Positions 6,126-12,850 of a stretch of 64,000 nucleotides of DNA are shown piece by piece. Source of the stretch: Phycisphaerales bacterium (GTDB taxonomy: Bacteria; Planctomycetota; Phycisphaerae; Phycisphaerales; UBA1924); contig JAHDXL010000001.1 of the NCBI GenBank assembly GCA_023382935.1, positions 469,003 to 533,002 on the forward strand. Direction: 5' to 3'. The position numbers were made by a program, and so were the translations under genes. The notes beneath the pieces were generated by a model. It searched no databases and had not been told where the DNA came from. It saw only the letters and a program-made list of their open reading frames with translations. The first letter of the stretch is position 1; the number at the start of each line of letters is the position of its first letter.

Positions 6126-7166
6126 ATGAGCACCGCCCTATCACGTCGGCATTTCGTCGGGCTCAGCGTCGCCTGGGGCGTATCGCTCGCCTCGTCGGCC
6201 CGCGCTTTTCGCGATGACGACCAGATTCTTGGACACGGCTCGCACCGCTACCGGCTCATCCGTGGCTGGGGAGCGGCCGACCCCTCGGCCACGCCTGTCC
6301 GCGACTGCCACGAGATGGTCCAGACCCGCGACGGCCGCCTGTTCATGTTCGGCAACGACACCCGCAACAACATGCTGATCTACAACAGGGACGGGCGGGT
6401 GGTCGGCGCCTGGGGCACCCAGTTTCCCGGCGGACACGGATGCACCTTGGCCGACGAAAACGGCGAGGAGTTCCTCTTCCTGACCGACCCCGATCGACAC
6501 CAGGTCTTCAAGACGACGCTTGATGGACGGATCTTGCTCACGCTCGATGCCCCGCTCGACGCCGAGCCATACACCGACGCCAACAACTACCGCCCGACCG
6601 AGACAGCCGTGGCCCCGAACGGCGACATCTACGTGGCCGACGGATACGGGAGCCAGTACCTGATCCACTACTCGCCCCGGGGGGAACTCAAGGGCGTCTA
6701 CGGCGGACCGGGCGATGCGCAGTTCCGCAACATGCACGGCGTCGCACTCGATACGCGCGACCCGAACAACCCCACGCTCCTGCTCACCGAGCGGGCCGGC
6801 AACCGCTTCGAGCGCTACAGCCTCGATGGCCGGCGCCTCGAGGTCGTCGCCACACCCGGCGCGTGGATCTGCCGCCCGGTGATCCACGGGCACGATCTCT
6901 ACTTCGCGGTCATCATCTCCGGCCTGGCCCAGTGGCAGTCCAACCGCTCCGGCTTCGTGGCCATCCTCGACCGGAACAACCGCGTCGTGTCGTGCCCCGG
7001 CGGACATGAGCCGGTCTACAGGGACGGCCGGCTCCAGCCGCTCGGGCAGTCGCGACCCGACGTGTTCAAGCACCCGCATGACGTGTGCGTCGATCGCGAC
7101 GGGAACCTGTGCGTGCCGCAGTGGAACTCGGGCCGCACCTATCCGCTGAGACTGGAAAGAGTTTGA
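6126..7166 (+). CDS. Tat-exported NHL-type beta-propeller protein
   Basis: Residues 1-27 look like a twin-arginine signal peptide (SRRHFVGLSVAWG followed by SARA). The rest forms six-bladed NHL-type propeller repeats (DGRLFMFGNDTRNNMLIYN; NGDIYVADGYGSQYLIHYS; DGNLCVPQWNSGRTYPLRL), resembling peptidyl-alpha-hydroxyglycine lyase-like or SMP-30-like propellers. A role in binding or lysis in the periplasm is inferred; the catalytic residues could not be assigned. The ATG at 6126 has AAGGAG 8 nt upstream. A longer in-frame start at 6045 was rejected because the Tat signal must be N-terminal. Confidence 0.75.
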   Translation: MSTALSRRHFVGLSVAWGVSLASSARAFRDDDQILGHGSHRYRLIRGWGAADPSATPVRDCHEMVQTRDGRLFMFGNDTRNNMLIYNRDGRVVGAWGTQFPGGHGCTLADENGEEFLFLTDPDRHQVFKTTLDGRILLTLDAPLDAEPYTDANNYRPTETAVAPNGDIYVADGYGSQYLIHYSPRGELKGVYGGPGDAQFRNMHGVALDTRDPNNPTLLLTERAGNRFERYSLDGRRLEVVATPGAWICRPVIHGHDLYFAVIISGLAQWQSNRSGFVAILDRNNRVVSCPGGHEPVYRDGRLQPLGQSRPDVFKHPHDVCVDRDGNLCVPQWNSGRTYPLRLERV

Positions 7167-7297
7167 ATGAGGGGCGACGCCCCACATTCGCACCCCATTT
7201 TGGTGGCAATTCCGCAACTTGGCGTCACAGTTGGGGTGAGCCGAACCCCAGGCTCTGATCCGGGGCGGTCGTTGCTTGTGAAGTTGGGAGGCATCCG

Positions 7298-8011
7298 ATG
7301 TTCCGTTCGTTCGCGCTCATTGCCGTCGCCTCGTGCGCAAGTGCCGCATCGGCTTCGATCTACAACCTTCAGAGCGACTGGAGCGAACTGAGCAACCCCT
7401 TCGGCCCGTGGGGTCTGCGCGAGGGGCTGAACTACCTGCCGCACGTGGACGCCTGGCAGCGCGTGCTCGGCGGGTGGAGCACGTTCCAGCCCGGTTGGGC
7501 ACGTTCGGAAGACGCCAACACCCGGCTGCCGTTCTTCTTCAAGAGTAACGGCTCGGAGACCTTCGGCCATGACTGGAGCGAGGGCGAGGTCGTCGTCCAC
7601 ACCACCGACCCGGGCAACGGCGTCGGCTCGGGACACGCCAACGTCATCTTCACCGTGCAGCAGACCGGCACGCTGTCGGTCACCGGCGGGCTGTGGATCG
7701 GGCGCGACATCGGGCGCTCGATGAACTGGGAAGTCTTCCTCAACGGGACGATCCTGACCGGCGGGTTCCTCGCCTCCGGAGACGCGTACTCGTCGGCCAA
7801 TCCCTTCGAGTTCAACCAAGGCTACGGCGGCACCAACGCCCTGACGAACCTGTCGGTCACGGCCGGCGACGTGCTGGAACTGCGCTTCACGACCCAGACC
7901 AACGCGGGCGACTTCGTGGTCATCGACATGACGGTGGAAAACATCCCGGCGCCCGGGGCTGTGGCTGGGTTGCTGACGATGGGCCTGATGTCCGCGCGCC
8001 GTCGCCGCTGA
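7298..8011 (+). CDS. Exported protein with PEP-CTERM-like sorting tail
   Basis: Starts with a Sec signal peptide (FALIAVASCASAASA, cleavage near residue 19). The mature part is beta-rich, with a carbohydrate-binding-like fold suggested by WIGRDIGRSMNWEVFLNG. The protein ends IPAPGAVAGLLTMGLMSARRRR, that is a PAP motif, a hydrophobic stretch and an Arg cluster, as in the PEP-CTERM sorting tails common in planctomycetes. GGGAGG lies 6 nt before the ATG. Likely surface-attached or processed by an exosortase-type system encoded elsewhere. Molecular function unknown. Confidence 0.75.
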   Translation: MFRSFALIAVASCASAASASIYNLQSDWSELSNPFGPWGLREGLNYLPHVDAWQRVLGGWSTFQPGWARSEDANTRLPFFFKSNGSETFGHDWSEGEVVVHTTDPGNGVGSGHANVIFTVQQTGTLSVTGGLWIGRDIGRSMNWEVFLNGTILTGGFLASGDAYSSANPFEFNQGYGGTNALTNLSVTAGDVLELRFTTQTNAGDFVVIDMTVENIPAPGAVAGLLTMGLMSARRRR

Positions 8012-8030: not shown

Positions 8031-9518
8031 TCATTGCAGGTAGTTTCCGCTGCTGGTCTGATACCCGCGGTCTAGGTTGACGAGCATGTAGCGCAGGGCG
8101 TCGACCGCGTGGTCGGAGCCGTCCTTGACCGGCGTGAGGGTCTCGGGGTTCTCTGCCGGGTAACGATACTTTTCGAGAGACTCGATCAACTGCGCGCAGC
8201 GCTCATGGATGTGAAGACTGGGCTGCCCCCCGGCGGGCCTGAGGCGAGCCCGCACGAGGCTGAGGCCCTCGGCCACGCTGGTGCGTCGGGCGCGGCAGCG
8301 CAGCCCGGCGCGGATGAGTGTCTGCACGTCGCTGATGCCGGTCTGGTTGCTGCGGCCTTTTCCGGCCGGATCGACGCCGATCCATTCGGGCACGGGCCAG
8401 CACGCTTCGAGAATGGCGCGGGCGTGCTGGCTGAGGATCACGTCGGAGGCAACGCGCTCGTCGATGACGAAGACGTGGCCATCGGGATCGACGCGCGCCC
8501 ACAAGACGACGGTCGGGGCGCGGATGCCGAAGTCCATCCCCCCGATCCACGTCGCGCCGTCCTGCTCGGGCGGGATTTGGCTGACGACGTGGACGTCGCG
8601 GTTGAACTCGGGGAGCACGCAATCGCTGCGGCGAGGTCGCGAGCAGAGCATCTCGGCGTCCCAGGTCGATTCGCAGACGCGCTGCTGCTGTCGCATCGCG
8701 TCATGCACGTCGATGTGCCCGGGCGGCTGGCCGCTCGCGTCGCGCTGCTTGGCGCGACCCTGGCAGGCGGAAAACAACGGGCAAACGGGCTCGCCCGAGT
8801 CATCGCGGCAGGCGTGCGCCTGCCCGCACGAGCCGAGCACGTCGATCACGCCCCACTTGAACAGGGCGCGCCTGTGCTCGCGAGCCTCGGCCACGAGGCG
8901 GTACATCAGCCCGTAGGGCAGGTGCATGGTCGAGAGACACTCGATCGAGCCCGAGACCAGGATGCCGCCGCAGTCCTTACTGCGCGTGGTGAGTTGGGCG
9001 GCCTCCCAGACTTCGGGGTCGAACAACTCGACTTCGTCGCAGCGGAGTTTCTGCACGCGCGTGCCGCGCACGGAGGTCTGGGACTGTGCGAGCAGTTCGA
9101 CCGACGAGCCGTTGAGCAGGTGCAGGCGCTTCTCGGTGATCCTGCCCTGGACCAGTTCGGCGAAGTGAGCGCGCGCGAAGATGGCGCGGAGGTGGTTGTG
9201 CATGCGCCGGGCCTGCTCGAGCGAGCCGCCGAGGATGCGGATCTCGATGCCGGGCTTGAACACCAGGTCGAGAGCGGTGGCGACGGCGGCGAGGAAGGTC
9301 TTGCCTCCGCCGCGGTTGGCCCACACGACACAATCACGGGCCCGCGTCGGATCGACCTCGAAGAAGGCGTGGCAGAGATAGTCGAACGGGGCGGCGTGCC
9401 CCAGCATGAGAGCCTGGCGCGGCAGCAGCAGGTCGAGGTGGACGCGCAGCCACTCGTGCAACTCGTCGGAGGTGAGCGGCCTGTGCGCGAACGCGATCGG
9501 ATCGAGGCGGTCACTCAC
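8031..9518 (-). CDS. Phage-type terminase large subunit
   Basis: A DNA-packaging motor with both domains present in 495 residues. The ATPase domain has Walker A WANRGGGKT near 66-74 and the Walker B-like KLRCDEVELF, followed by a coupling Thr/Ser region. The nuclease domain has acidic residues of an RNase H-like fold in GGMDFGIRAPTVV, IGVDPAGKGRSN and DGSDHAVDALRYM. Between them lies a Cys-rich insertion (C-x5-C-x8-C-x5-C from about residue 243) that could bind zinc. The start is GTG at 9518, 4 nt after GGGGGGAG. It is the last gene of the minus-strand cassette. It looks intact, but no portal, capsid or protease gene is nearby, so its packaging substrate is unknown. Confidence 0.85.
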   Translation of the reverse strand: MSDRLDPIAFAHRPLTSDELHEWLRVHLDLLLPRQALMLGHAAPFDYLCHAFFEVDPTRARDCVVWANRGGGKTFLAAVATALDLVFKPGIEIRILGGSLEQARRMHNHLRAIFARAHFAELVQGRITEKRLHLLNGSSVELLAQSQTSVRGTRVQKLRCDEVELFDPEVWEAAQLTTRSKDCGGILVSGSIECLSTMHLPYGLMYRLVAEAREHRRALFKWGVIDVLGSCGQAHACRDDSGEPVCPLFSACQGRAKQRDASGQPPGHIDVHDAMRQQQRVCESTWDAEMLCSRPRRSDCVLPEFNRDVHVVSQIPPEQDGATWIGGMDFGIRAPTVVLWARVDPDGHVFVIDERVASDVILSQHARAILEACWPVPEWIGVDPAGKGRSNQTGISDVQTLIRAGLRCRARRTSVAEGLSLVRARLRPAGGQPSLHIHERCAQLIESLEKYRYPAENPETLTPVKDGSDHAVDALRYMLVNLDRGYQTSSGNYLQ

Positions 9519-9532
9519 GAATCTCCCCCCTT

Positions 9533-9820
9533 TCAGTCGTGTTCGATGCCCAGAGCCCGCAGCAGGGCCTCGGCACGGCGCGCGTGGTGGGCGCGCAAGG
9601 TTTGCAGCACGGCGCGGCGCTGTCCTGCGGTAAGGAAGAACGTCAGCGCGTGCGGGAGATGGTCTTCCAGCGTCGGCGGAGCGCACGCCTCGAGCGACGG
9701 ATGCACGCGATCCTCAAGCGGGGGCGGCGTCCTGCCACCTGGGCCCTCGCTCCGGCCGGGGCCACTTTGCACTTCGTCTCTCGGTCTCCCGGTCTCCCGG
9801 TTTCTTCTGGATGCCCCCAT
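9533..9820 (-). CDS. Small protein between the ATPase and terminase genes, unknown function
   Basis: Predicted 95 residues. The N-terminal third is Arg/Gly/Pro-rich and possibly disordered; the C-terminal part (LPHALTFFLTAGQRRAVLQT, then LRAHHARRAEALLRALG) is two helices resembling a small DNA-binding or terminase-small-subunit-like region, but this is only shape. The ATG at 9820 has AAGGGGGA upstream. The gene overlaps the 3' end of the ATPase-GNAT gene by 107 bp in another frame and its TGA lies 14 bp before the terminase GTG. Position would suit a small terminase subunit; the sequence does not prove it. Confidence 0.5.
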   Translation of the reverse strand: MGASRRNRETGRPRDEVQSGPGRSEGPGGRTPPPLEDRVHPSLEACAPPTLEDHLPHALTFFLTAGQRRAVLQTLRAHHARRAEALLRALGIEHD

Positions 9821-11198
9821 GTCGTTCCCCCTTGCGTCGGTTCGACGGCGTGTTCGGGGGGAACACATGTGCATAGGCCAAGGGTGTGACGCACAGTCGC
9901 GCGGCGGCCAATCGCGCGCGTTCACCCGGTTCAGTCTGCAGGACGTGACGACAGCGCGCCCAACGCTCGATTTCACGCGCCAGCAGCGGCGAGCGCACGA
10001 TGTGGCGCGCCCGATCGGCGTCGGCAAGCATCCAGGGCTCGTGCCCCTGGCTTTCGAGCGCGTCGGCGAGGCGCGCGTCGGCGGCGTCGCGCGGCAGGTG
10101 ATAGGCCGTCATCCCGGCGCGCTCGAAAAAGGGGCAAATGGAGCCCATCGCCGCGACGGCCTCGGTGGCGAGTGTCAGCGGATCGGACAGGTACGCCTCG
10201 ACGAGTCGGCGTGCCACGCCACGCCCGCGAAAGCGCGGATCGACGATGACGCGGGAAATGCATCGGACTTCGGCGTTGAGGCGTGCAACGGCGCCGCGGC
10301 GGTCGCGCCCGGAATAGCGCCCGGGCCAGGCCTGGGCACGCCACGCGCCGTTGAGCGTCGGCATCGAAACGACGAGCACGCCGGCCAGTTCGTCATGCGC
10401 GCCGTCGATGGCGCGCAGGCAGCCGACGCGGGTGGCGGGCGAGCCGGCCAGATAGTGGTGTGCGATCAGCCGATCGACGTCGCGCTTCGAGCCGGGCTCG
10501 ATGATGATGCGGTCCGGCGCGGGCCTGGCCGGTTCGCACTGATGCCACGATCCGGTCGAGTCGAAGCGCAAGTGCAGGTCGGGCGCGAGGTGGTCCGTCA
10601 GATCGTCGTGGGCGGTGGCGCAGACCACGCGCATGCCCGAGGCGTGGGCGGCGCGGGCGAACGTGTGCGCGACCCCCTCGGCCGTCACGCGGTCGAGCAC
10701 CGAGCAGAACTCATCGACGAGGATCCATTCGGCGCGGGCGTGATCGGCGCGCCAGAAGGCTTCGGCGAGTAGCGCGCGGTGACGCTGGCCTTCAGAGAGT
10801 TCATGCACGCGGCGGGCCAGCAGAGCCGGCTCGGCCAGCCCGAAGCGGGCCAGATGCGCAACGACCAGATCCGGCGCCAGGTGGTCGCCGAGTATGTCGA
10901 TCAGAAGCAGGCCAGCGCGCAGCGAGTCTGCCTGCGGGCGGACCACGGCCTGCGACCGGCGACACAGATGTTCGGCCAGCACGAGCAGCGTGCGAGACTT
11001 GCCGCTCCCGCTGGGGCCGGTGAGCAGGGCGATCTGCCCGGCCCGCAGGCTGGTGCGCAGTCGAGCAGCCGACTCGCGCCAGTCAGTCGGTGGCGCGAGC
11101 CCGGCGCGCAGGTGCAGCCCGAAGGGGGCGCAGGCGGCGATCTGCCTCGGCGTGGGCGGGTTGGTGGTGAGGATGATCTTGCCGGTGGGTGGTGTCAT
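9714..11198 (-). CDS. ABC-type ATPase fused to a GNAT acetyltransferase domain (COG2401-like)
   Basis: Residues 1-260 form a soluble ABC-type ATPase: Walker A GPSGSGKS at 61-68, signature LSEGQ at 133-137, Walker B WILVDEF at 157-163. Residues from about 265 to 460 contain a GNAT domain with the acetyl-CoA loop VIVDPRFRGRGVARRLVEAYL. The same fusion is known as COG2401, whose function I do not know. No membrane segment is present, so it is not a transporter. The C-terminal 35 residues are Arg/Lys-rich and share DNA with the next gene. The ATG at 11198 has no Shine-Dalgarno sequence and was chosen because sequence upstream is Arg/Ser-rich and non-protein-like. It could modify nucleic acid or protein; substrate unknown. 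Confidence 0.7.
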   Translation of the reverse strand: MTPPTGKIILTTNPPTPRQIAACAPFGLHLRAGLAPPTDWRESAARLRTSLRAGQIALLTGPSGSGKSRTLLVLAEHLCRRSQAVVRPQADSLRAGLLLIDILGDHLAPDLVVAHLARFGLAEPALLARRVHELSEGQRHRALLAEAFWRADHARAEWILVDEFCSVLDRVTAEGVAHTFARAAHASGMRVVCATAHDDLTDHLAPDLHLRFDSTGSWHQCEPARPAPDRIIIEPGSKRDVDRLIAHHYLAGSPATRVGCLRAIDGAHDELAGVLVVSMPTLNGAWRAQAWPGRYSGRDRRGAVARLNAEVRCISRVIVDPRFRGRGVARRLVEAYLSDPLTLATEAVAAMGSICPFFERAGMTAYHLPRDAADARLADALESQGHEPWMLADADRARHIVRSPLLAREIERWARCRHVLQTEPGERARLAAARLCVTPLAYAHVFPPNTPSNRRKGERHGGIQKKPGDRETERRSAKWPRPERGPRWQDAAPA

Positions 11199-11311
11199 GG
11201 GTTGCTCGGCGAATGGGCAACGGTGCAGGCAACTGGCCCACGTCACCCGCGGGGATTGGTGATGAGAGCCGGACGGACACAGGGATGGAGCGACGAAGAG
11301 ACGAAGTTGGT

Positions 11312-11797
11312 TCAGGCAGTGCGGCGGGCGGGCGGCCGGGCAGGCGCGGCGCGTTGATCGGAGTCGTAGAGCGCGTTGATCGCGTCGGCGTGTCGGCGCA
11401 CCGAGTAGAGACTCATGCGCAGGTGCATCGACGCGGCCCGCATCGACAGGCCCTGCATGACCATGGCGGTGGCGACGCGACGACGCGAGGGCGACCAGGA
11501 CTCGAAGTTGCGCAGGACGAACGAGAAGCGATCGGAAAGAAGGCGCTCGGTGAGTCGGCGAAGACGACGGCTCAGCACGCGCGGGTCGGTGTTTGAGGCC
11601 TCGGCAAGGATCTTGATGGTTCGCCCGTCGCGAAAGTAGGACTCGACGAGCAGACGTTCGGCGGGGGCAAGGAAGGCGGCCCGGGCAACGACGCAGTCGG
11701 CGCGGTCGCGCCGGAAGCGCTTGCGCAAATCGAGGGCCTGATCGGGATCGGTGTGCCTCCATTGGCCTTTCGAGTCTGTTCGGGTCAGATGCTGCAC
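11312..11797 (-). CDS. Helix-turn-helix protein, sigma-region-4-like
   Basis: 161 residues, basic. Two helix-turn-helix-like segments are visible: GRTIKILAEASNTDPRVLSR near 70 and MVMQGLSMRAASMHLRMSLY near 117. The first resembles the DNA-binding part of sigma region 4. It is probably a transcription factor for the phage-like cassette. The start is GTG at 11797 because a perfect AAGGAGG lies 8 nt upstream; longer starts run into the divergent promoter region. It is first in the minus-strand transcript and divergent from the repressor. Confidence 0.65.
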   Translation of the reverse strand: MQHLTRTDSKGQWRHTDPDQALDLRKRFRRDRADCVVARAAFLAPAERLLVESYFRDGRTIKILAEASNTDPRVLSRRLRRLTERLLSDRFSFVLRNFESWSPSRRRVATAMVMQGLSMRAASMHLRMSLYSVRRHADAINALYDSDQRAAPARPPARRTA

Positions 11798-11869
11798 GTT
11801 GGCTTCCTCCTTCGCGGCTGCAACCACGGATTTGTGGTTTTCCCCCAACTGTTCGCACGTCCTTGTGGA

Positions 11870-11885
11870 TTCGCTATTTAGCGAA
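11870..11885. promoter_or_regulatory. Candidate operator between the divergent regulators
   Basis: Perfect inverted repeat TTCGCTA-TT-TAGCGAA in the 231-bp region between the HTH gene and the repressor gene. Further TTCGC or GCGAA half-sites occur nearby, at about 11852 and 11912. Symmetric sites of this size are typical for dimeric CI/LexA-like repressors. Binding by the neighbouring repressor is inferred. Confidence 0.5.
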
Positions 11886-12028
11886 CTCACACATAGGGTT
11901 CTACCAATCGGCGAACGAGATTCAAGGACTTTGGGACCGAACTCCACGAACGCGCGCACAGCCGCATACGATCGGATCTTGTATGGCATATGATTGGCTC
12001 GGACCAGAGTCTGGACGGAGGTTCGATC

Positions 12029-12850
12029 ATGTCGCGCGAGATTCCGAACACCGACCCCCGGCCTCTGGGGGTGCGCCTGCGTCAGGCCCGCGAGAATCGG
12101 GGGCTGAACCTGGAGGATCTGGGGCGACGGGCAGGGTGCGCCAAGTCGTACCTGTCGGAGATCGAGACGGGGCGACGAGGGCCTCCGAGTGACGAGGTGC
12201 TGGGCAGGCTTGAGCGAGCGTTGGGGCTGGAAGCGGGTGAACTGGTGCGTCTGGCTGAGTGGGCGCGCACGCCGCGGGAGGTGCGGCGTGAGATGAGCGG
12301 GCTGACGTTGTCGTCGCAGGCGGCCAGGAAACTGGCAGAGATTGTGCGCGCGGGCGGTTCGCTCGACGAGGCGTATCGGTCGGGGGCGCTGCGCGGGCTG
12401 GTCGAGGCGGCGTGCCCAGCGGAAGAGGGCTTGGCCAGCGCGCTGCCGAGGGAGGTGCCGCTGATCAACCGCGTGAGCGCCGGGTATCCGGCGGACTTTA
12501 CGGATCTGGGGTATCCGGCGCGCGTGGCGGATGAGTATGTGCGCTGCCCGGGGCTGTCAGACCCGGATGCGTTTGCGGCCCGGGTGGTGGGCGACTCGAT
12601 GATGCCCGAGTATCGGGAGGGGGACATCGTGGTGTTCAGTCCGGCGCGCGACGTGGGCAGCGGGGACGACTGCTTCGTGCGGCTTGCGCCCGATCACGAG
12701 AGCACGTTCAAGCGCGTGTACTTCGAGGGCCAAGAAGGGTCGGAGATGATCCGGTTGCAGCCGATCAACAACCGGTATGCGCCGCGGGTGCTGTCGCGAG
12801 AGGACGTGCTGGGGCTGTACCGGGCGGTGAGCGTGACGCGGGTGATTTGA
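12029..12850 (+). CDS. XRE-type repressor with LexA/CI-like S24 self-cleavage domain
   Basis: An N-terminal XRE helix-turn-helix (about 14-72; LGVRLRQARENRGL, CAKSYLSEIETGRRGPP) is followed by an S24 peptidase domain. The dyad is Ser190 in VVGDSMMPEYREGDIVVF and Lys228 in STFKRVYF, 38 residues apart as in LexA. An Ala151-Gly152 pair in RVSAGYPADF matches the usual cleavage site. So it is likely a phage-type repressor inactivated by RecA-stimulated self-cleavage. The ATG at 12029 has GGAGG 8 nt upstream. It is divergent from the terminase cassette and presumably controls it through sites in 11798-12028. Confidence 0.85.
   Translation: MSREIPNTDPRPLGVRLRQARENRGLNLEDLGRRAGCAKSYLSEIETGRRGPPSDEVLGRLERALGLEAGELVRLAEWARTPREVRREMSGLTLSSQAARKLAEIVRAGGSLDEAYRSGALRGLVEAACPAEEGLASALPREVPLINRVSAGYPADFTDLGYPARVADEYVRCPGLSDPDAFAARVVGDSMMPEYREGDIVVFSPARDVGSGDDCFVRLAPDHESTFKRVYFEGQEGSEMIRLQPINNRYAPRVLSREDVLGLYRAVSVTRVI

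Follow-up and report, generated by a model that had tools for sequence, protein, structure and literature searches.

How does a bacterial chromosome come to carry an intact phage terminase under a repressor-like switch, with no gene for a virus particle beside it? The question is raised by a stretch of 64,000 nucleotides of a Phycisphaerales bacterium (GenBank assembly GCA_023382935.1, contig JAHDXL010000001.1, positions 469,003 to 533,002), called the window here, in which five open reading frames (ORFs) at positions 8031-12850 form a cassette. Four lie on the minus strand, encoding a helix-turn-helix (HTH) regulator, an ABC-type ATPase fused to a GNAT domain, a small protein and the terminase large subunit (TerL); the fifth, an XRE-S24 repressor, is divergent from them. 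A first-pass annotation had placed these five genes here, and all are present and open. It regarded the cassette as stand-alone and proposed a domesticated packaging module, of a gene transfer or satellite-like kind, able to use capsids encoded elsewhere, or a defence system built from a terminase nuclease, with a simple prophage remnant as the dull alternative. We think it likely that the cassette forms one half, for regulation and DNA packaging, of an element of the class Phycisphaerae that resembles a gene transfer agent (GTA) and derives from a tailed phage, the shell half lying about 142 kb away. Judging from these genes, the bacteria probably make virus-like particles carrying their own DNA.

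Where is the shell? As the first-pass annotation had noted, no match to a portal, capsid, tail, lysis or integrase gene was found among the eight genes scanned at the cassette locus. The cassette is nevertheless not stand-alone: a cluster of shell genes lies about 142 kb from it on the same contig (G000:C1:616728-621554, in which G000 is the window's genome). The cluster contains a portal gene (C1:616728-618239; PF05133 3.3e-15, phrog_64 3e-19), the gene of an SU10-type major capsid protein (MCP; C1:618868-620040; SU10_MCP, PF17236), a scaffold-like gene with a weak PF06810 match (0.0025), an adaptor-like gene that has no family match and is named by its place, and two small conserved genes. 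SU10_MCP scored over the cut-off in 34 of 41 relatives, including the window's genome, mostly with E < 1e-70, and in none of 14 control genomes. This result overturned an early view of a terminase without any capsid, which had been based on empty or sporadic searches: portal and capsid profiles from SSU5-type phages (four rows each, with no positive control) each matched 0 of 21 relatives, Phage_portal PF04860 appeared in 5 of 41 relatives (3 over the cut-off), the portal family found at the capsid being PF05133, and the HK97 Phage_capsid PF05065 appeared in 3 of 41.

The two halves go together across the class. With TerL counted at E <= 1e-20, 196 of 397 Phycisphaerae genomes carry it (150 of the 284 good ones), and the MCP profile found its target in 171 (136 of the good ones). 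When both searches are taken as one genome draw, as their size and handles agree, TerL and MCP occur together in 163 genomes, TerL only in 33, MCP only in 8 and neither in 193 (Fisher p 8e-66). Their distances are correlated over 25 genomes (Mantel rho 0.76, 0/2000 permutations), and the MCP tree keeps families f1, f4, f6 and f20 whole. Portal, scaffold, capsid and adaptor stand together in 18 of the 21 capsid loci compared; of the other three, G248 showed neither scaffold nor adaptor, G308 showed no portal and L301 had the capsid alone. L301 is a second, divergent SU10_MCP copy in the window's own genome (G000:C3:298985-300094) with no other capsid-cluster genes nearby, and is perhaps a prophage. 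The spacing between TerL and MCP on one contig has a median of 37 kb and ranges from 2.5 kb to 1.1 Mb in 45 cases, which were picked by eye from the matches listed and do not represent all genomes. In G178, a genome of another family, cassette and head genes are joined in one locus, in the order HTH, ATPase, GNAT, TerL, portal, scaffold, capsid and adaptor-like gene on one strand. S24 is divergent, and from HTH to portal automatic gene calling also placed a few ORFs on the opposite strand; a holin-like gene follows on the strand of the head genes, about 9 kb past the adaptor-like gene.

Is the packaging half inherited with its host? Within the window's family TerL is present in 150 of the 163 genomes (107 of the 112 good ones) and the neighbouring gene metG in 159. 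Among the matches listed its identity across the family is 44-84%, mostly with one match per genome; some family genomes show several pieces of one TerL ORF. Among 392 genomes drawn from the phylum, weaker TerL matches turned up in 19 outside the class (best 1e-55), nearly always over the nuclease domain alone among the matches listed. The TerL tree requires 5 label changes for six taxonomic groups, the minimum possible, with 10 of its 44 rows belonging to no group and group f11 weakly supported. Identity to the window's TerL tracks identity to its metG (Spearman 0.61) over 91 genomes with a single long match each, split or partial matches being dropped. Between the window and a congener the ratio of non-synonymous to synonymous substitution (dN/dS) is 0.19 for TerL, that is, purifying and like the 0.21 of metG, 0.10 for HTH, 0.13 for S24 and 0.28 for the ATPase-GNAT; the six genes of the shell half span 0.13-0.27 (portal 0.16, MCP 0.14, adaptor 0.15, scaffold 0.27). 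A minority of copies were reported with stops, many of which, in the family search, may fall in the query's 56-codon upstream extension and were not checked singly. The cassette is a vertically inherited host-lineage gene set of the class Phycisphaerae. Its homologues are not confined to complete prophages, and the patchy distribution with mobility genes that marks a prophage or satellite was not found, given the 107 of 112 good family genomes with TerL and trees that follow taxonomy at family level. In the parts checked for them (the cassette with its near flanks, and part of the G178 genes) no integrase or replication gene was seen. A prophage relic is rejected on distribution, trees and purifying selection, and a satellite-like system is not supported because descent is vertical and the loci are split. 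Two records of metagenome-assembled genomes titled Cyanobacteria/Leptolyngbya (L041, L114) bear the Phycisphaerae cassette or its TerL; these titles look mis-assigned.

The gene order is conserved among relatives. Of the named loci, 61 extend at least 4.5 kb upstream of TerL, and every one of these has HTH, ATPase and GNAT ahead of TerL and reading the same way; a divergent S24 accompanies them in 55 and the small ORF is present in 38. A further set gave HTH, ATPase-GNAT and TerL in 20/20 loci and S24 in 18/20, although the two sets (L041-L120 and L021-L040) partly overlap and are not independent. Five or six extra families recur in 4-7 of 20 loci compared and were taken for antisense or mis-called ORFs, without being checked singly. 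Outside the window's family, HTH, ATPase and GNAT accompany TerL in 16 of 19 class loci and a well-matched S24 is found in 6 of 19; at L246 the ATPase and GNAT stand at the edge of the stretch. Two further loci, L247 (G472) and L248 (G264), have an intact TerL and no ATPase, GNAT or HTH in their 15-kb stretches, and the missing partners may be relocated. Gene order, selection and the distant portal and capsid all agree with a domesticated packaging module able to use capsids encoded elsewhere.

TerL, comprising an ATPase and an RNase H-type nuclease, occupies 8031..9518 on the minus strand (495 aa, probable GTG start at 9518, inside an ORF of 8031-9686). It matches PF17289 (1.8e-6) and phrog_2 (1.9e-20), and its Walker A (RGGGKT), Walker B (LRCDE) and nuclease aspartates are invariant across 17 aligned TerLs. 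The AlphaFold model (pLDDT 86.5) has the large terminases of phage D6E (Foldseek E 1e-17) and then T4 (E 2e-15) as its best PDB matches, with low whole-chain TM-scores of 0.35-0.38. Within the last six residues a Tyr or Trp occurs in 73 of 75 distinct family copies (Tyr in 64), as a docking peptide might look. At the boundary of the two domains, residues 231-252 form a four-Cys insert, invariant in 17 and 28 aligned sequences, with the pattern C-x5-C-...-CPLxxxC, in relatives often C-x5-C-x2-C-x5-C; it is not present in the four SSU5-type TerLs compared and presumably resembles the iron-sulphur loop of EndoIII/MutY. A similar motif is carried by a distant TerL outside the class (L262 of G855, E 1e-55), which lies near an SU10_MCP gene and has no ATPase-GNAT module in its 12-kb stretch; it probably belongs to an ordinary prophage or phage relative.

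Viral contigs hold related pieces of the terminase. In IMG/VR, the terminase ORF of L122-L146 except L128 is limited to the ATPase part (~250-400 aa) and shares 36-42% identity with the window's TerL; separate RNase H-type ORFs were seen in L124, L133 and L145, and L133 also has ParB-like, amidoligase-like and sliding-clamp genes. These are apparently split terminases. A 34-kb contig listed as viral (L121) carries a GNAT gene, a small ORF and a TerL ATPase half at 561-2351, together with a primase/helicase-like gene; its TerL half branches near the Phycisphaerae of family f11.

The remaining cassette genes vary more in form. The small ORF (9533..9820, minus strand, 95 aa), which overlaps that of the ATPase-GNAT, had no family match in the library scans. 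It looks like the shrunken remnant of a ParB-like protein, since its last ~45 residues align to the C-terminal end of such proteins, which fill the same position, whole, in other families. At L246, L249, L256 and L261 the interval from GNAT to TerL holds two genes, one ParB-like and one for a small product of ~150 aa; ParB_N is above the cut-off in L246 (5e-10) and L249 (2e-10) and below it in L256 and L261, and the ~150-aa protein is TerS-like by size and place, its best match being a sub-threshold HTH. The ATPase-GNAT (9714..11198, minus strand, 494 aa) is fused in the window, as the first-pass annotation had said; fusion is confined to some genera, with 26 of 80 named loci fused by our own criterion and two separate genes in many relatives. 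Its predicted structure has an ABC ATPase fold, and nearly all PDB matches listed are ABC ATPases; these matches gave nothing on the GNAT part. The HTH regulator (11312..11797, minus strand, 161 aa) starts at a GTG behind AAGGAGG, inside an over-long ORF of 11312-11989, and by eye has two helix-turn-helix-like stretches. An HTH protein is thus present, but the earlier description of it as sigma-region-4-like comes down to a weak sigma-70-ECF match (0.022). By inference, its role would be that of an activator or of a TerS-like protein. Beside the cassette, at about 7000-8000 of the window, the GC skew switches sign.

How would such a cassette be switched? The S24 repressor (12029..12850, plus strand) has an Ala-Gly cleavage site, Ser and Lys, which we take to be those of LexA/CI-type repressors and which 67-71 of the 71 distinct S24 proteins retain. 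Its candidate operator is the inverted repeat TTCGCTATTTAGCGAA at 11870..11885, also present in the congener. The S24 protein seems to control the cassette alone, since this repeat has one genome site at <=2 mismatches (a reversed control pattern gave 16 per strand). In the divergent intergenic regions of relatives the common form is TGTTCA-N8-TGAACA; 37 of the 66 distinct regions carry it with at most 2 mismatches when any arm spacing from 0 to 10 is allowed, 29 of these having a spacing of 8; shuffles gave 4.5 and reversed arms 5. Upstream of the portal in L297 and G378 a repeat lies within 2 mismatches of the window's form, a count with no shuffle control. At L282, on G000:C1, a GC-rich imperfect inverted repeat of ~43 bp, seen by eye before 16729 and kept in the congener G022, lies upstream of the portal and would be an operator or a terminator. 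The repressor residues and the operator support the LexA/CI-like switch proposed in the first-pass annotation and suggest control by DNA damage.

A possible outline of the process is as follows. During normal growth the S24 repressor would sit on the inverted repeat and block the operon. DNA damage would cause it to cleave itself, as the conserved cleavage site, Ser and Lys imply, and the HTH protein, ATPase, GNAT and TerL would then be produced. The HTH protein may turn on the capsid cluster; it is the candidate activator because the search there gave no clear S24 site. The ATPase-GNAT, with ParB/TerS-like partners where these are kept, would prepare or mark the DNA, as a published prediction implies. 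TerL would dock at the portal, load the heads with chromosomal DNA and cut it, and the particles would leave through lysis.

What might the mark be? For ABC ATPase-GNAT pairs the published prediction is an acyl modification, itself uncharacterised, on a base of the DNA (PMC7824862). The domain pair is the same here; in Phycisphaerae, as distinct from those predicted systems, it sits in a terminase operon of bacterial chromosomes and may mark DNA for packaging. A relationship to the Mom protein found no support in one weak test, in which the GNAT profile of SSU5-type phages (four rows) was compared with a single Mom sequence, that of Mu (probability 0.2%). A bolder reading, possible though on the unlikely side, is that this is an independently domesticated, perhaps very old, class-wide GTA lineage with an SOS-type switch, in which an acyl mark made by the ATPase-GNAT picks the DNA to be packaged or protects it in the recipient; the pair would then act with the ParB/TerS-like partners where kept, and its target would be chromosomal DNA.

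Several observations weigh against a GTA-like element. TerL stands without MCP (at E 1e-20) in the 33 genomes counted above, several of them near-complete, so that losses or divergent capsids exist; MCP stands without TerL in 8. Within the window's family the TerL and MCP distances are uncorrelated (12 genomes, rho 0.16, 439/2000), the MCP tree fails to recover the order as one clade, and a few MCP copies are partial or contain a stop. The cassette has no recognised TerS gene. The window's repeat resembles the common operator of other genera, yet lies more than 2 mismatches from it, and upstream of 16 portal loci no repeat within 2 mismatches of the common form was found. Relatives have a small membrane protein of holin-like look, whose family matches are weak, none naming a holin; in the window's genome the 40 kb surrounding the capsid cluster gave no match to a holin-like profile, the other ORFs of that stretch not having been library-scanned. 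Almost no PHROGs or Pfam match was obtained for the tail-like ORFs of relatives.

Could the particles be kept for killing instead? On a PBSX-like account host DNA is packaged and the particles are retained because they kill relatives, not for gene transfer. The same genes would be retained, the S24 switch and the holin-like gene of relatives fit a lytic release, and PBSX packages evenly dispersed 13.4-kb chromosome fragments, according to one report (PMC12946183). However, the stretch beside the capsid cluster of the window's genome, scanned in part, gave no recognisable receptor-binding or tail gene, and the measured genes are under purifying selection; we regard this account as improbable. 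A capsid compartment or other non-transfer particle, for example for storing or disposing of damaged DNA, in which DNA loaded by TerL is never delivered, is distinctly improbable. It agrees with the window's family, where head genes alone were recognised in the capsid clusters compared, but in relatives from families f5, f6 and others the head genes are followed by long ORFs. Two of those in G170 gave family matches, one weakly to a tail-collar family (phrog_31611, 7e-6) and one to Laminin_G_3 at a score just short of the cut-off.

Defence or DNA processing on the chromosome would dispense with the capsid: the ATPase-GNAT would modify DNA, as has been predicted for such pairs (PMC7824862), and TerL would be a translocating nuclease, which suits the 33 genomes with TerL and no MCP. 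This was dropped as the leading reading once the capsid was found, and is not supported because TerL matches no PADLOC family and is co-inherited with the capsid. In the PADLOC scan neither TerL nor the small ORF gave a match, and those of the ATPase (best 4.6e-7), HTH (8e-4) and S24 (best 3.7e-11) cover generic ATPase/HTH stretches only. TerL-capsid co-occurrence and the single locus of G178 also argue against it, and an SOS-type repressor would be unusual for a standing defence; we consider it highly improbable. Prophage or satellite remnants of one repeatedly re-invading phage lineage are scarcely credible: all the genes are phage-like and G000:C3:298985 holds another, divergent SU10_MCP copy, but the trees follow taxonomy at family level, TerL is mostly single in a genome, selection is purifying, the halves are 142 kb apart in one genome and no mobility gene occurs among the cassette genes scanned.

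The Phycisphaerae element is most suitably classed as a GTA-like candidate that represents a new lineage, and most of the sequence-level features tested agree with this: it encodes a phage-derived terminase, portal and capsid, and these are vertically inherited and under purifying selection. Gene content, gene order, vertical descent, purifying selection and TerL-capsid co-occurrence are observed. In the literature searched on GTAs and planctomycetes, Phycisphaerae capsid or terminase, new GTA lineages, and SU10 with GTA, the element was not reported; most subscription papers and all preprints lay outside the search. Terminase and capsid genes kept by vertical descent across a class of Planctomycetota would amount to a separate domestication at great depth, with which it becomes testable whether gene transfer itself maintains such elements. 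It would offer a possible route by which DNA is exchanged within a group where unusual cells abound, may account for stray terminase and capsid annotations in Phycisphaerae genomes, and places the unexplained ABC ATPase-GNAT module, common to SSU5-type phages, beside DNA packaging.

How does it compare with known systems? In SSU5, nickie, BUCTxx99 and RHph_X66, genes for a ParB-like protein, an ABC ATPase, a GNAT, a putative DNA-binding protein, TerL, portal and capsid stand in a row, with small ORFs interspersed; in SSU5 the row crosses the end of the record and the portal is annotated as hypothetical. Phages and phage-plasmids of this SSU5/nickie type share with the Phycisphaerae element the order of ATPase, GNAT, TerL, portal and MCP, although their TerLs are only ~25% identical to it. 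Since the gene order is shared, the packaging module seems to descend from a phage ancestor of that layout. The heads of SU10-type phages have the same MCP family, PF17236; the MCP copy of G867 matches structure 7z45, which we take to be the SU10 capsid, weakly in sequence, and 9ny2 better. Unlike that of such a phage, the Phycisphaerae MCP is inherited vertically across the class, with no whole phage.

Among GTAs, FpGTA of Faecalibacterium likewise lies outside Alphaproteobacteria, a likeness drawn from its description. According to its report, an operon encodes its TerL, portal, scaffold and capsid, and a second locus its tail and lysis genes; its particles, which lack identifiable tails, are regarded by the authors as most likely podovirus-like (PMC12946183). 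FpGTA has particle, proteomic and packaged-DNA data (PMC12946183), whereas the Phycisphaerae element is known from genes alone. RcGTA and the RcGTA-like elements of Alphaproteobacteria (Rhodogtaviriformidae) likewise consist of phage-derived packaging and head genes. The capsid of RcGTA is of the HK97 type, unlike the SU10-type capsid of the Phycisphaerae element (PF05065 in 3 of 41 relatives). RcGTA-like genes are mainly vertically inherited, under purifying selection and placed at more than one locus, as two accounts describe (PMC6821227, PMC9953437). The Phycisphaerae element differs from RcGTA in belonging to another phylum, and in having an S24 repressor and an ATPase-GNAT in its terminase operon.

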